Shown here one piece after another: positions 401-62,091 of a stretch of 64,000 nucleotides of DNA. The stretch spans positions 186,001 to 250,000 of the forward strand of contig NZ_JACHIO010000008.1 in the NCBI RefSeq assembly GCF_014203225.1, read 5' to 3'. The DNA comes from Granulicella mallensis (GTDB lineage Bacteria > Acidobacteriota > Terriglobia > Terriglobales > Acidobacteriaceae). The translations under genes and the position numbers were made by a program. Position 1 is the first letter of the stretch. Each line of letters opens with the position of its first letter. Under the pieces are notes generated by a model. That model saw only the letters and a program-made list of their open reading frames with translations, had not been told where the DNA came from and did not search any database.

Positions 401-1294
401 ATGCCGGAGTTACCTGAGGTCGAAACCGTTGCCAATGGGGTCGATGCCCGCGTCCGTGGACAGCGAATCGTAAGTGTGTGGACCAGTGGGAAGCCGCAGA
501 CGTTTAAGTCTCCCGAAACTGAGATCGTTGAAACGCTGACTGGAACAAAGATTGAAAAAGTGCGGCGGGTCGGCAAGACGATCGTGATGGACCTGGTACG
601 CGGTGGCAGTGGCACGAAGCAGATTCCCTCCGGGAATGACAACCAGAAAAGCAAGGGCAAAGGCAAAGACAAGAACAAAGGCACGAAAGATACGGCGCAG
701 TTTCTAGTTCATCTGGGGATGACCGGGCGGCTGCTGGTGTCGCAGGCGGAGGTTCCGCTGCCGCCGCATACCCATGCGGTGCTTGCGCTCGCTGATGGCC
801 GTGAGGTGCGGTTTGTCGACCCGCGACGGTTCGGGCGGCTCTCGGTGGTGACCACCGAAGAGGGTTACACGGGGCCGGGTGTCGAGCCGACGACCGTGAG
901 CGAAGAAGAGTTTGCCGGACTGTTCAAGGGGCGCAAGCTGGCGATCAAGGCCGCACTCCTGAACCAGTCGATCCTGCATGGGGTGGGGAATATCTATGCG
1001 GATGAGAGCCTGTTTCGCGCGGGCATCCGGCCACGGAAACAGGCAGGCAAGCTGACGCGGGCAGAGCTTGGCCGCCTGCATGAGGCCTTGCAGCAGGTGC
1101 TGGCGCATGCCATCAAGCTGGGCGGGTCGTCGGTCTCGGATTACGTGGACGCGGATGGGGTGCGCGGGTTCTTTCAACTCGAGCACAAGGTCTATAGCCG
1201 GGCGGGCGAAGACTGCAAAGACTGCGGGGCGGGGCTGAAGAAAATTGTCGTCGGCGGGCGAACGACAGTGTATTGCCCGACGTGCCAGCGATAG
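401..1294 (+). CDS. mutM: Formamidopyrimidine-DNA glycosylase (Fpg/MutM) with in-frame insertion
   Basis: Base-excision repair enzyme that removes 8-oxoguanine and cuts the abasic site. The N-terminus MPELPEVET supplies the catalytic Pro2 and Glu3; Lys59 matches the family lysine near 57; HLGM is at 104-107; DPRRFG and NQSILHGVGNIYADESLF follow; the C-terminal zinc finger has Cys272, 275, 292 and 295. The protein is 297 aa, longer than the usual 270 or so. The excess is a hydrophilic Gly/Lys-rich segment at about residues 70-98, between the strand ending MDLVRG and the strand AQFLVHLGM. Its DNA (about 615-687) matches an intergenic palindromic repeat also found near 34113-34312 and 62017-62091, so the segment appears to be a repeat inserted in frame. 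All catalytic and zinc residues remain, so activity is probably kept. Confidence 0.95.
   Translation: MPELPEVETVANGVDARVRGQRIVSVWTSGKPQTFKSPETEIVETLTGTKIEKVRRVGKTIVMDLVRGGSGTKQIPSGNDNQKSKGKGKDKNKGTKDTAQFLVHLGMTGRLLVSQAEVPLPPHTHAVLALADGREVRFVDPRRFGRLSVVTTEEGYTGPGVEPTTVSEEEFAGLFKGRKLAIKAALLNQSILHGVGNIYADESLFRAGIRPRKQAGKLTRAELGRLHEALQQVLAHAIKLGGSSVSDYVDADGVRGFFQLEHKVYSRAGEDCKDCGAGLKKIVVGGRTTVYCPTCQR
615..687 (+). repeat. Repeat family G copy inside mutM
   Basis: The stretch around 618-654 reads almost identically to one arm of the intergenic element at 34113-34312: a short GATTCCC...GGGAAT hairpin followed by the GACAACCAGAAAA tail and an A/G-rich AAGCAA run. It lies wholly inside mutM in frame and encodes the extra Gly/Lys-rich loop. 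Identity was judged by eye. Confidence 0.75.
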
Positions 1295-1341: not shown

Positions 1342-1514
1342 TGTCATCTCGACCGGAGCATGACGGCTTTATGTCATGCGCAGTGGAGAGACCCCTGTAT
1401 TCTGCCGAAGCAGCGATATTGCTTTCGGTTAGGGATATGGGCAGCCTATGCACCCTCAAAATACAGGGGTCTCTCCACTACGGCGCAAAAAGCGCGCCTT
1501 CGGTCGAGATGACA
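1342..1514. repeat. Long imperfect palindrome (family H)
   Basis: Inverted repeat of about 170 bp filling the gap between the converging mutM and ROK genes. The outer arms are TGTCATCTCGACCG and its complement; an inner 19-bp arm at 1383-1401 pairs perfectly with 1460-1478. Single copy in this window. It could act as a transcription barrier between the two genes. Confidence 0.8.
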
Positions 1515-1539
1515 AGGTATGGGTAGTAGAAGAGGCTGC

Positions 1540-17519: not shown

Positions 17520-17767
17520 GACTGACTCTCCTAAAATATTGCAAGGGAATAAAAGGCTCTACTTATTGCAATCGTGAATGCGGATGCGTTAATGACTAAC
17601 AAGCCAATGTGAATCGCAGGTTAGAAAATTGTCTTTAATGTGGGGTTTTACTGAGGTACGGACAAGTACAACAGGGGCTTCAGTCGCGAAGAAATTCTTT
17701 GCTGAGCGAGCATTCCCTCCGTGGCTGAACAGGCTGCGGAAAACTCTCAGGTAAGGAGAGAGTCTTG

Positions 17768-18058
17768 ATCTTTAGGGCCAAGGGCCCGTTTCATCCCAGC
17801 CTGGGGTGGAGCGGAGCAGCGAGCGGTTTCTAGCTCGCTGCCAGCGTAGCCCCAGGTACGGAATCAACTCGAAAGCAGAGGGCTGTAAGCCCGATTCATC
17901 GTGCACTGCACAGAAGATGAGTCGGGCTTACAGCCCTCAACTTCTACTCCTGCACTAACCTGGGGCGTCGCTCCCCGAGCCACCACGCTATCGCGTGTTG
18001 TCCCTGGTTCGCTGTGCCCCAGGCTGGTATGAAACGGGCCGTTGGCCCTAAAGATCAA
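17768..18058. repeat. Very long palindrome, family B copy 0
   Basis: About 290-bp inverted repeat. The outer arms (GATCTTTAGGGCC...GTTTCATCCCAGCCTGGGG at 17768-17807) pair with 18020-18057. Inside is a second inverted repeat built on GAGGGCTGTAAGCCCGATTCATC and its complement. The CCAGCCTGGGG and GGGCTGNAAGCC words also occur in the copies around 38996-39905. Confidence 0.85.
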
Positions 18059-18182
18059 ATGGGGGCTTTCCGCAATCTGTCTAGCAACACCAACAGGTCG
18101 GGACGGCGGGACTGAAGTCCCGCCCCTTCAAAGCAAAGGCTGTAACTAAGAACAAAAGCCAAATGACAACAAAAGCACTGAC

Positions 18183-26615: not shown

Positions 26616-26678
26616 GTCGCTGTCATTGCTTCTGAGATAGGTCCGGGCTTTAGCCCGGACATTTACGACAGCAACGAC
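26616..26678. repeat. Repeat family C, short copy
   Basis: GTCGCTGTCATTGCTTCTGAGATAGG, then the hairpin GTCCGGGCTTTAGCCCGGAC, then a partly complementary tail ACGACAGCAACGAC. The core hairpin and the GAGATAGG lead recur at 46432-46652. Confidence 0.8.
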
Positions 26679-26697
26679 TCACATATTTTGTTTCCCA

Positions 26698-26930
26698 CTG
26701 AATCGTCATCCTGAGCGGAGCGCCTCGCGTTTTTTGCGAGGCGCGGAGTCGAAGGACCCCGAAGAACTCGATCTCACCCTTGCTGTTAGGACCTTTTCCA
26801 GCACTAGAGTCCAGGCTCGAGCGCTCGAGGGGGAAAAGGGACGAAGAGTATAGGCAAGATAGCAACCCTCGGGGTCCTTCGACTCCGCGTCCCCAAAAGC
26901 CGGGACGCTCCGCTCAGGATGACGATTCAG
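26698..26930. repeat. Repeat family D, copy 1
   Basis: About 230-bp element with outer arms CTGAATCGTCATCCTGAGCGG and the complementary CCGCTCAGGATGACGATTCAG. Inside are CGCCTCGC/GCGAGGCG and the pair GGACCCCGA / TCGGGGTCC. A second copy in the same orientation is at 28569-28786. Confidence 0.88.
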
Positions 26931-27144
26931 TGGAGAGACGTAAAACAAAACTGAGTCTCCCTCTGGTCCATCATTTGCATCTGCACGTTGGATGACACGC
27001 CATAAGATTCCCATCTTTGTAACAAGTTCATTACAATGTTGGAACCATCAAGCCACAACGCGCGTATCCTGTCTGCGTAGAACTATGTCTCCACCCAGCA
27101 GCGCGGGAGATGCACGAAACTTTCTCGATCGAGGTTGATTTCCA

Positions 27145-28494: not shown

Positions 28495-28568
28495 AACAGT
28501 TTGGCCCGTGTGATAGCAGGACCAAGGCAACGATGTGCCTCTGCTCTTCTCATCCCCTCCACAGAAAC

Positions 28569-28786
28569 GTCATCCTGAGCGGAGCGCCTCGCGTTTTTGC
28601 GAGGTGCGCAGTCGAAGGACCCCGAGGGCCTTGATCTCACCCAGGAAGCTAGGACCTTTTTCCGCACGAAAGCCCGGGATCGAGCGCTAGAGGTAGAAAA
28701 GGAGCGAAAAGCAGAGGCAGGATTACAACCCTCGGGGTCCTTCGACTCCGCGTCCCCAAAAGCCGGGACGCTCCGCTCAGGATGAC
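28569..28786. repeat. Repeat family D, copy 2
   Basis: Same arms and interior order as copy 1 (GTCATCCTGAGCGGAGCGCC ... GGCTCCGCTCAGGATGAC type ends, GGACCCCGA / TCGGGGTCC inside). Direct orientation relative to copy 1, 1.6 kb apart. Confidence 0.88.
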
Positions 28787-28802
28787 ATCTTTAGGGTGAG
28801 AT

Positions 28803-28834
28803 TAAAAAAGACGATGGGTACACGTCGTCTTTTC
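28803..28834. terminator. Terminator-like hairpin in the pyrR leader
   Basis: AAAAAGACGA...TCGTCTTTT forms a stem with A and T tracts on its flanks, so it could end transcription in either direction. It lies about 105 bp before the pyrR ATG, where an attenuator would be expected, and just after repeat D copy 2. Confidence 0.5.
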
Positions 28835-34059: not shown

Positions 34060-34112
34060 GCATCGTCTGGAAACAAGGAGGACAGAAGGACGCAGTGCCT
34101 TTGCAGCTGATG

Positions 34113-34312
34113 TCTTTGCCTTTCTGGTTGTCATTCCCGCAGGGAATCTGCTGTTTGCTCGTAGCGGCTCAAATGCCATCCGCGGGCACAAATGAAGGGG
34201 GCACGGTTAAACCGTGCCCCCTTCATTTGTGCCCGCGCCCCTAACCTTATGGGTAGTGCACGCGGACAGCAGATTCCCTTCGGGAATGACAACCAGAAAA
34301 ACAAAAGCAACG
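34113..34312. repeat. Repeat family G, complete copy
   Basis: About 200-bp palindrome. Outer arms CTTTCTGGTTGTCATTCCC...GGGAATCTGCTGT and ACAGCAGATTCCC...GGGAATGACAACCAGAAA; inner arms GCGGGCACAAATGAAGGGGG and its complement around AAACC. One outer arm equals the segment inserted in mutM. Confidence 0.85.
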
Positions 34313-34318
34313 ATTACG

Positions 34319-38876: not shown

Positions 38877-39093
38877 CCAAACCGACGTTACACCCAGCAC
38901 GTCAATCGACGATCAAGCAGGTAAAAACTATTAGAGGGCGAATGGTGAACGAAGGATTTCTAAGCCAAAGAGCAATAAGTCCAGACGCGCCCCAGAAACA
39001 GCGCCATAGGCGCGGCTCATCCCAGCCTGGGGCGCAGCCCCAGGTAAAGGGCCAATAAGCCCCAGAGGGCTGAAAGCCTGACTCATCGTTCAA
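38877..39093 (+). repeat. Direct repeat left of the transposase pseudogene, with family B copy 1
   Basis: Begins ACCGACGTTACACCCAGCAC, continues through GAAGGATTTCTAAG and GTCCAGACGCGCC, and ends with the B element at 38996-39088 (CATCCCAGCCTGGGGCGCAG ... GAGGGCTGAAAGCCTGACTC). The same order of blocks recurs in the same direction at 39690-39905. Confidence 0.85.
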
Positions 39094-39124: not shown

Positions 39125-39576
39125 TTAATCCCACACATATCGTTCATCGCAAGAAATACCGTACTTGGCTAAAAGCACCCGGTACTCCTCCTGGAAAGAA
39201 CACTTCCGATGATGCTCTTCTTGCCTATCGATATAGGTCCTCAAAGCCTCCAGTTGAGAAGGCCCGAGAGAAAACGCACCATACCCTCGCTGCCAGGCGA
39301 AACTCGCCAACTCGGGAAATTCATCTTTGATCCACTTGGAAGACGATGCTTTCAACTTCTCGACTATTTTAGAGACCGTAACGGTGCGGGAGAGACGAAT
39401 GGCAAGATGAACGTGATCTTCTACACCACCAGCGCGATAACACTCACAACCGATATCGCGAGCAACCGTAGCAAGATACGCAGTAACGCAACACGGGCGG
39501 GAGCCTTCAAAACCGGCATCCGGTCTTTTGTGCTGAAGATGACATGAATGAGGAGATAGGAGTTGGATTGTGGCAT
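39125..39576 (-). pseudogene. REP-associated (Y1/HUH) transposase with one frameshift
   Basis: Read on the minus strand from ATG 39576. The first frame gives the family start MPQSNSYLLIHVIFSTKDRMP...ARVALLRI and then runs into a stop at 39421-39423. The second frame picks up TAYLATVARDIGCECYRAGG, VEDHVHLAIRLSRTV (the HUH metal motif HVH), LKASSSKWIKDEFPELASFAW, and the C-terminal TYIDRQEEHHRKCSFQEEY...DERYVWD. Joining the frames near 39483 with one added base would restore a continuous protein of about 150 aa, the usual RAYT size. The catalytic Tyr candidate is in TYIDRQ. It sits between two direct repeats and family B palindromes, the normal company of RAYT genes. Confidence 0.85.
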
Positions 39577-39690: not shown

Positions 39691-39905
39691 ACCGACGTTA
39701 CACCCAGCACGTCAATCGACAATCAAGCAGATCAACCTGATGGATGCTTAGAGGGCGAATTGTGAACAAAGGATTTCTAGATCAGGGAGCCACGAGTCCA
39801 GACGCGCCACAGAACCAGCGCCAAAGGCGCGTCTCATCCCAGCCTGGGGCGAAGCCCCAGGTAAAGGGCCAATAAAATCCAGAGGGCTGAAAGCCTGACT
39901 CATCA
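39690..39905 (+). repeat. Direct repeat right of the transposase pseudogene, with family B copy 3
   Basis: Second copy of the 38877-39093 segment: ACCGACGTTACACCCAGCAC, AAAGGATTTCTAGA, GTCCAGACGCGCC, then the B element at 39828-39905. Differs from the left copy by scattered substitutions and short insertions. Confidence 0.85.
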
Positions 39906-50254: not shown

Positions 50255-50280
50255 TCGATTGGACTATTTAGATGGAGTCA

Positions 50281-50528
50281 TTGCGCGAAGCGCGTTCCCC
50301 GATGCTTCAGCATCGGGGAGGCGGAGGGTAAGGGAGGCAATCGCCTTTAGGCCCCTGAATTCGGGTTTAGCAAAGATGTGGCCTTTAGGCCCGGGCCTTC
50401 TTTCGGCTGCGGACAAAATGCCCGGGGCTAAAGCCCAATTCTTTCTTGGCCCCTTGTTCCGTAGCCTAAAGGCTACGGCTCCCTCCGTCTCCGCGACGCT
50501 AAAGCGTCACGGTTGGCGCTTCGCGCTA
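50281..50528. repeat. Repeat family A, copy 2
   Basis: Nearly the same as copy 1 in the same direction: TTGCGCGAAGCGCGTTCCCC ... AAAGATGTGGCCTTTAGGCC ... CCGTAGCCTAAAGGCTACGG ... GCGCTTCGCGC. It begins 27 bp after the terminator. Confidence 0.88.
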
Positions 50529-50569
50529 TTTGAACGCCCTATGCTTCGTTGAATGATCAACGCACGACC

Positions 50570-51535
50570 CTAGCGCAGAAAATGCTGCCCCTCCAACCAC
50601 TGCTGGAACAATTCAGGCCACGCCGACTCTTCCGGAATACCCGTCGCCAGGCCCGCTCCATGCAGTCCATGCTGAAAGAACTTCGCCTCCACCGGCACAT
50701 TGCCCGCATGCAACGCCTCCGCAAAGAGCACGCTGTTCAGGGGGCTTATCCGCGCATCGTCCATGCTCTCAAACAAGAACACGGGCGGAGTGTGCGGTGT
50801 CACGTTGTCCTGTCCGGAGAGATAGCGCTGCAAGTGGTCGAGCTCCTTGCCGCGATAGCCGTACAACAGATGGTCGTGGGAACTCTTCGCCGCATATTGC
50901 TCCGGGTCCATCGAGATGACCGGATACCCCAATCCCAGCAAGTCGGGCCGGGCATTCGTGCTGTCCACTGCATCGTGTACGGGCAGGTCGAAGTCCGAAG
51001 CGCTGTGCAGGGCCAGCGTGCTCGCCAGGTGGCCACCCGCGGAGAATCCAAAGATCATCACCCGGTTTGGGTCCACGCCCCACTGCCGCGCGCGATACCG
51101 CACCAGCTTCAGCCCACGTTGCCCATCCCACATCGGCACAGGGTAGCGATACGTGCCGTCTGTCTGCACCAGGCGGTAGTACAGCACAAAGGTAACCGCA
51201 TGCAGTTGGTGGGAAAAGTACTCGCCTACCGGCGTCTGCTCCTTCGCATCGGAGAGCCGGTCATAGCCGCCGCCCGGCATCACGATAATGGCTGGGCTGG
51301 CGGCAGACTGCCCTCCGGCCGCGGGAAACATCCGCAGAAAAGGGATGTCACGGCAAGGGTCGCTGCCTGTAGCGCCGGGCGCCGTGCCTTCCCACAGACG
51401 AATGTCGTTACGGTCGCCCGGATCAAAGCAGGGTGCGGCGGCCGGTGTCTCGGAACGCTCGTGATGATGTCTCTGGGCCGGCGCCGCCCCATGAAGCAGG
51501 ACGGTCAAGATCAATAAAACAAGGGCCTTGCGCAT
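50570..51535 (-). CDS. Secreted alpha/beta-hydrolase esterase
   Basis: 321 aa from ATG 51535, which follows GGAG by 6 nt; a start four codons earlier is possible. Signal RKALVLLILTVLLHGAAPAQ. Catalytic features: oxyanion HG-type loop VMPGGGYDRLS, nucleophile Ser155 in GFSAGGHLAS, acid in ESMDDARISP, His in HGLHGAGLA. The PAIIVMPGGGY...GYPV start resembles the acetyl-xylan-esterase or BD-FAE type. The likely job is deacylating plant or microbial polysaccharides in the periplasm; substrate not shown by the sequence. Confidence 0.82.
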   Translation of the reverse strand: MRKALVLLILTVLLHGAAPAQRHHHERSETPAAAPCFDPGDRNDIRLWEGTAPGATGSDPCRDIPFLRMFPAAGGQSAASPAIIVMPGGGYDRLSDAKEQTPVGEYFSHQLHAVTFVLYYRLVQTDGTYRYPVPMWDGQRGLKLVRYRARQWGVDPNRVMIFGFSAGGHLASTLALHSASDFDLPVHDAVDSTNARPDLLGLGYPVISMDPEQYAAKSSHDHLLYGYRGKELDHLQRYLSGQDNVTPHTPPVFLFESMDDARISPLNSVLFAEALHAGNVPVEAKFFQHGLHGAGLATGIPEESAWPELFQQWLEGQHFLR

Positions 51536-61992: not shown

Positions 61993-62016
61993 TTTGGATT
62001 CGGGTTTCTGAGGTCG

Positions 62017-62091
62017 TTGCTTTTGTCGTTGCCTTTCTGGTTGTCATTCCGACCCTCCCGCGAAGCAAAAGGGAGGAATCTGCTGTCTGCC
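62017..62091. repeat. Repeat family G, partial copy
   Basis: GCCTTTCTGGTTGTCATTCC then a CCCTCCCGCG...GGGAGG hairpin and GAATCTGCTGTC. It matches one outer arm of the element at 34113-34312 and, in complement, the segment inside mutM. The second arm is missing; family F copy 2 follows directly. Confidence 0.7.

Follow-up and report, generated by a model that had tools for sequence, protein, structure and literature searches.

Results

A hairpin repeat within the mutM coding sequence

The window analysed here (64,000 nt of Granulicella mallensis DNA) carries mutM, which encodes a formamidopyrimidine-DNA glycosylase, at 401–1294 (+), as an intact frame of 297 amino acids in the list of open reading frames. 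Its Pfam domains are Fapy_DNA_glyco (residues 1–147), H2TH (167–247) and zf-FPG_IleRS (269–296), and the best Foldseek match of the modelled protein is the MutM structure 1r2y (E 2.4e-29), which indicates a MutM fold. An alignment of 59 MutM sequences shows no variation at Pro2, Glu3, Lys59, Cys272 and Cys292 and at least 90% conservation at Cys275 and Cys295; Pro2, Glu3 and Lys59 and the zinc finger are thus spared, as the original prediction had it. The protein harbours an extended loop (residues 66–99, encoded at 596–697 (+)) of 34 residues versus 8 in most relatives, so the additional segment proposed earlier is real, yet it amounts to ~26 extra residues rather than 28–30. In the predicted structure (mean pLDDT 89.6; built from 59 varied sequences and replacing a model from 32 close homologues with pLDDT 55) the insert is modelled as a low-confidence loop (pLDDT ~54) between strands 60–67 and 98–104, consistent with the proposed surface position between two strands.

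Within this loop, the repeat-derived insert spans 617–687 (+; right edge approximate) and consists of a hairpin, ATTCCC-TCC-GGGAAT, followed by GACAACCAGAAA and a hexamer-like tail that encodes Lys and Gly and is the source of the Lys/Gly run. The reading frame is open across the whole insert, in keeping with the in-frame insertion first proposed. Its 28-base core GATTCCCTNCGGGAATGACAACCAGAAA (622–649, no mismatches) recurs exactly at 34121–34148 (−) and 34272–34299 (+), and by blastn the loop DNA matches 34268–34310 with 91% identity over 43 bases (E 3e-12). No match to the core arose in 100 shuffles of the window, and the resemblance is hence far better than chance. The earlier claim that the extra residues are encoded by DNA of the intergenic repeat at 34113–34312 therefore holds, as does the further likeness to 62017–62091, where an 18-base half core was found at 62034–62051 (−) with one mismatch; this half core belongs to a further intergenic unit with a longer loop (62013–62091, −). 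The MutM insert is thus an intergenic hairpin repeat, in frame, inside a DNA-repair enzyme.

Anatomy and abundance of the repeat unit

A search of the whole genome (52 contigs, 6.47 Mb) for the half core GGGAATGACAACCAGAAA (18 bases of the 28-base core) returned 237 matches at ≤2 mismatches, compared with one for a reversed-pattern control. A degenerate form of the core (≤1 mismatch) was found 253 times in the window's own genome (G000), 346 times in G003, the closest relative among the genomes compared, 155 times in G008 and 129 times in G009, and was absent from 9 of the 28 genus genomes. The genome-wide count proposed with the original prediction therefore stands at 237–253 copies. At the family level, 60 of 200 genomes contain at least one match, many of them just one, and copies are frequent in a few genera.

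Each unit opens with a small hairpin, which in its short form is ATTCCC-NNN-GGGAAT and elsewhere has longer loops; next come GACA and a brief motif with AGAAA at its end, and the unit closes with a tail built of hexamer-like steps such as AAAGGC or AAAGAC. Its arrangement was examined in 93 units (≤2 mismatches) from an even 26% sample of G003. Among neighbours less than 320 bp apart, 24 pairs were oriented (−,+), none (+,−) and seven on the same strand; 19 of the 24 (−,+) pairs were spaced by 126–183 bp. Up to 48 of the 93 units may thus reside in dimers able to fold as one long hairpin. The window contains one such dimer at 34113–34312, in which two inverted units with arms at 34116–34152 (−) and 34268–34310 (+) surround a central palindrome, and 34105–34318 can fold as one long hairpin; mutM holds a single unit and not a dimer. 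The repeat is palindromic, multi-copy and mainly intergenic. A bias of its copies towards one strand by replichore in G003 was considered and dropped, as the even 26% sample shows both strands throughout and the restriction to plus-strand copies in the first half of one listing was an artefact.

The relation of the repeat to RAYT genes was also considered. Eleven Y1_Tnp matches are present in the G000 genome, and ten of these loci were scanned with 1.5 kb of flanking sequence: one carried a unit at one mismatch and one at three mismatches, and eight carried none, among them the RAYT gene of the window (39221–39484, −), which has no repeat unit within 1.5 kb. With two of ten loci near a unit, one of them degenerate, the link is weak and RAYT is not claimed as the mobilizer. 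The RAYT-type gene of the window is flanked by two matches to the Rfam family Acido-Lenti-1 (39000–39044 and 39817–39861, both −), and this RNA family may represent the end repeat of a RAYT element; at the other nine scanned loci no Acido-Lenti-1 match reached the gathering score. Four further segments of the window, each ~250–350 bp (17725–18080, 26666–26952, 28547–28807 and 50279–50577), match several to many places in G003 by blastn.

In-gene copies are rare

In the G003 sample, 4 of the 93 copies lie in called genes (the calls being those of a crude purpose-made caller), against ~69 expected from a coding fraction of 0.738, and selection against in-gene copies therefore looks strong. The four are found in mutM, in rnr, in the linker of a transporter fusion and in a likely start-site artefact (a CobW-like edge case); a further rnr copy at three mismatches falls outside this count. 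Beyond mutM, the repeat was encountered in the frame KQIPxGND in rnr (G000 and G003), clpB (G026 and G011), polA (G011), a glycosyltransferase (G008), an amidase (G010) and the C terminus of ybeY (G003). Of these genes, rnr, clpB, polA and the transporter fusion were named by Pfam, and the glycosyltransferase, amidase and ybeY by reading of the sequence alone. The in-gene list derives from 20 places among the matches listed, mostly longest open frames, and is a minimum count and not a full census; moreover, the search profile was built from the KQIPxGND frame, so that the representation of frames is biased to it. Seven frames that merely begin with the repeat peptide and 15 judged by eye to be non-coding were rejected as in-gene insertions, as was the CobW-like edge case.

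In the products of the four genes named by Pfam (rnr, clpB, polA and the transporter fusion) the inserts are located between Pfam matches or, at site 1 of rnr, where the cold-shock match splits. Orthologues with the site empty were seen for mutM, clpB and rnr, and polA and the others are single cases; these three unrelated genes thus show the combination of in-frame copies and empty orthologues that is expected of coding palindromes of the RPE kind. In the PolA of G011 the repeat peptide is accompanied by a GLGIREQGLGIGERL stretch, which resembles another tandem repeat read as protein.

Filled and empty mutM sites among relatives

A MutM match was found in 26 of the 28 genus genomes, with the loop readable at the DNA level in 25. 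Six of these 25 (G000, G003, G008, G009, G011 and G020) have loops of 23–37 residues and the other 19 have loops of 7–12; a seventh carrier, G027, was recognized from a contig that starts within the insert. The loops were searched against 2.9 Mb of collected loci, with mutM, clpB and rnr frames masked and 80 distant loci left out; these loci are enriched in ones collected for this repeat, and match numbers are thus not densities. Each of the six long loops found a repeat match elsewhere, at E values from 1e-11 to 7e-20, and the 19 short loops found none. The comparison with close relatives suggested at the outset therefore found the segment missing from 19 of 25 genomes, with no long loop whose DNA is unlike the repeat. 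Genomes with the mutM insert are richer in repeats (10–346 versus 0–32 copies; one-sided P value 3e-4), and carriers at any of the three sites in mutM, clpB and rnr make up 10 of 19 genomes with the repeat versus 0 of 9 without it (P value 0.01).

Among 120 database MutM proteins (118 parsed), which were ranked by likeness to the insert-bearing query so that their proportions are biased, the loop is occupied by KQIP-type, ADSSAALRND, KQVLRSAQDDN-type or GPGSRAQG-type peptides. The ADSSAALRND peptide is a loop variant of the same repeat, and the KQVLRSAQDDN- and GPGSRAQG-type peptides would, judging from the protein sequences, likewise originate from repeat DNA.

Between G000 and G003, 53 of the 267 mutM codons outside the loop differ, and all 53 differences are synonymous. 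Within the loop, the 28 aligned codons contain three synonymous and seven non-synonymous differences plus a two-codon indel (two and eight, respectively, under another gap placement), with KQIPSGNDN identical in both. MutM appears from this comparison to be a constrained enzyme of predicted activity with a drifting loop.

Different repeats occupy the same sites in clpB and rnr

The ClpB linker (before AAA2) is 27–28 residues long in 14 sequences, none of which matches repeats there, whereas 10 of the 11 longer linkers (>28 residues) do match. Five of these (G011, G026, G019, G025 and G027) contain the mutM-type repeat; three contain a CCCATGTCTC...GAGACATGGGGCACCC palindrome (G006, E 8e-11; G001, E 1e-5; G002, E 2e-8), to which the palindrome in G023 is similar (E 1e-6), and G024 contains a heptad run (E 2e-8). 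The clpB insert is absent from the most repeat-rich genomes (G000, G003, G008 and G009) and present in G019, which has one pattern match at 54% completeness; copy number alone thus fails to explain carriage.

At site 2 of RNase R, 9 of 21 sequences match repeats (G012 weakly) and 12 have no usable match though their loops vary, G015 and G017 being discounted because their one match is another rnr. In G003 and G009 this site holds the mutM-type repeat in its second sense frame (KSRFPxGMTERKTS). In G000 it holds, in frame, a different palindrome, which matches window positions 1468–1517 (92% over 50 bases, E 1e-14) within a second intergenic palindromic repeat, TGTCATCTCGACCG...GGAGAGACC, located downstream of mutM at 1328–1528; this palindrome has no match at E 0.01 to the mutM insert and its intergenic copies. 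One rnr site thus carries two different palindromes in two sister genomes. Several of the repeat families begin with (T/C)GTCAT. Sequence comparison shows in-gene copies returning to shared sites in mutM, clpB and rnr.

An antisense frame in a transporter fusion

Nearly the whole genus has a symporter-hydrolase-NamZ fusion protein: 25 of the 28 genomes gave a match at E 1e-80 or better, and in 24 of these the open frame is at least 1,332 amino acids long. In G000, G003 and G023 the linker of this protein contains the repeat read in its antisense frame, LPLLFLLSFRGVAEEPA, with matches to repeats elsewhere at E 3e-8 to 7e-16. Among the eight sequences read, the same segment is a native hydrophobic stretch without a repeat match in four others and has a weak repeat trace in G009 (E 9e-6). 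The maximal 15-residue hydropathy of the segment is 2.42–2.52 in all eight. Hydropathy varies widely among the six frames of the repeat unit, and a stop interrupts one of the sense frames.

Discussion

Proposed origin and probable recurrence of the MutM loop

The reading that we prefer, with a probability of about 90%, is that MutM received, in frame, one unit of a hairpin repeat present in many intergenic copies, and that this unit survives because the site tolerates a disordered extension. In this scenario, a unit of ~45–70 bp would have entered at the tip of a surface β-hairpin that can accommodate such an extension. Insertion would be roughly indifferent to place, and largely blind, with selection clearing nearly all in-gene copies except at a few permissive sites: the mutM hairpin tip, the ClpB linker before AAA2, the two RNase R sites and interdomain linkers. 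The open frame that is kept would be one that suits the protein, that is, charged sense frames in loops and the hydrophobic antisense frame in a membrane-like segment, and the repeat tail would change length in six-base steps, so that the frame is preserved.

Expansion of a low-complexity sequence by slippage within mutM, resembling the repeat by chance, might be suspected from the hexamer-like run in the insert tail. However, the hairpin core is not of low complexity, and its 28-base match was never reproduced in the shuffled windows; slippage is refuted for the core and as an origin of the insert scarcely deserves credence, while it is possible for the length of the tail. A Lys/Gly-rich loop could instead have been selected as an adaptive DNA-binding extension of MutM, with the likeness to the repeat being secondary: the insert is basic, its modelled position lies between strand 60–67 and the strand 98–104 that leads to the HLGMTG segment, and KQIPSGNDN is unchanged between G000 and G003. 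Yet in the loop seven non-synonymous changes stand beside three synonymous ones and an indel, compared with 0 and 53, respectively, in the codons around it, related proteins carry quite different sequences at that position, and 19 of the 25 genomes read manage without a long loop. An adaptive extension is accordingly a very improbable account.

A different question is whether the carriers reflect one ancestral mutM insertion that was afterwards lost several times, exchanged between genomes and converted by other copies of the repeat. At the DNA level, every genus carrier read has the same repeat family in mutM, and the changes on the tree could be one gain and several losses. On a mutM tree without the loop, five carrier changes are needed and at least two are forced; on a tree of rnr, clpB and mutM from 28 genomes with gappy columns removed, five are needed, of which well-supported branches force at least three. 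The latter tree rejects a single clade of carriers (P value 1e-61, with G017 and G019, which lack mutM data, placed on the non-carrier side). A tree of 141 MutM proteins, serving as support only since its pattern classes are approximate and 15 rows unclassed, requires 31 changes for the main loop class, five of them forced by supported branches. Against a single insertion also stand the KQVLRSAQDDN and GPGSRAQG peptides in the same MutM loop (at the protein level only), the different repeat families at the clpB and rnr sites at the DNA level, and the need for several losses back to ~8 residues. The one presence/absence pair read, G000 versus G003, differs by a 45-bp unit in tandem with no clear target-site duplication, and for mutM an exact empty site flanked by a duplication was not obtained. 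Loss or gene exchange could produce such scatter on the tree too; still, repeated insertion is favoured, one ancestral insertion being unlikely, and the MutM loop is probably a recurrent site filled on more than a single occasion.

Extending repeated insertion beyond mutM, it seems to us somewhat more plausible than not that a few housekeeping proteins of this lineage possess fixed sites, or 'sockets', open to more than one palindromic repeat family. A repeat landing there would be retained in whichever frame suits the local protein, a charged one in loops and the hydrophobic antisense one in a membrane segment, and one family would replace another over the time that separates sister species. 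Intergenic hairpins would then be a steady source of new protein segments.

Relation to known repeats

In-frame insertion of palindromes had been regarded in the original prediction as known mainly from Rickettsia, which is too narrow: in-frame REPs have been published for several phyla, and the available text of PMC3733652 describes them in Opitutus, Thauera, Xanthomonas and others, many in DNA-repair or DNA-synthesis genes including that of DNA polymerase I. For recB, it describes two Xanthomonas species with different REPs at nearly the same position. Its main text, as available, names Acidobacteria for tyrosine transposases only, and mutM, formamidopyrimidine and RNase R are absent from that main text, the target ORFs being listed in its additional files. 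The accessible portion of PMC12306157 includes Granulicella aggregans in a list of genomes predicted to contain REPs, and the mere presence of REPs in Acidobacteriota is therefore nothing new. Searches of open PubMed Central papers, supplements aside, found neither in-frame repeats reported for Acidobacteriota nor any repeat described within mutM, which agrees with the earlier view that a comparable case in this phylum would be new. What is apparently new is the phylum and the sharing of sites by different repeats.

The GTAG/CGTC-tagged REPs share with the Granulicella unit, as far as the available text goes, in-frame hairpins, DNA-repair genes and dimers in opposite orientation (PMC3733652), whereas the Granulicella unit has a 6-bp stem and another tail. 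The CGTC tag, an unpaired CGTC (often TGTC) beside a stem beginning with AT, is present, as the reverse strand reads TGTC-ATTCCC, and the dimers have one preferred opposite orientation, as in CGTC REPs (24 (−,+) and 0 (+,−)). However, CGTC REPs have a stem of 8–9 bp, a loop of 4–5 nt and a CCA tail, compared with 6, 3 and CTGC in the short form here; the unit was not filed among them, despite the tag and the dimers, because of these differences. The Neisseria dRS3 element is classed as a CGTC-1 repeat in the available text of PMC3733652. Compared by description, dRS3 is likewise a small, high-copy intergenic hairpin repeat. Its core is presumably of the form ATTCCC...GGGAAT, to which the Granulicella core can be likened; to our knowledge, in-frame gene invasion is not a hallmark of dRS3.

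The RPEs of Rickettsia (~150 bp), as summarized in the accessible part of a review (PMC10969869), comprise several palindromic families in frame within unrelated genes, and the present case is likened to them by description in that respect. It differs in that the in-gene units are ~45–70 bp, the genomes are larger and different repeats share the same sites. Cod-2 repeats, on the available text of PMC2267715, are a small repeat in various coding sequences and in different frames, though of another sequence and host; that text does not describe different repeats sharing one site. Enterobacterial RU/ERIC fusions have in common that small mobile repeats are read as parts of proteins, yet in the portion of PMC2759123 available they concern largely small or less known loci, whereas the proteins here are housekeeping enzymes with empty orthologues.

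Implications

The repeat-derived loops apparently represent non-coding DNA turned into tolerated segments of housekeeping proteins, and with them the range of protein-coding palindromes widens to include a lineage whose genomes are large and of soil type. They also carry a warning: a long loop in a protein of this kind may stem from a repeat, and a function should not be assumed for it without a test. With one site, several repeats and many species, these loci form a natural series of replicates for how selection admits non-coding DNA into proteins, in which frame and for how long.
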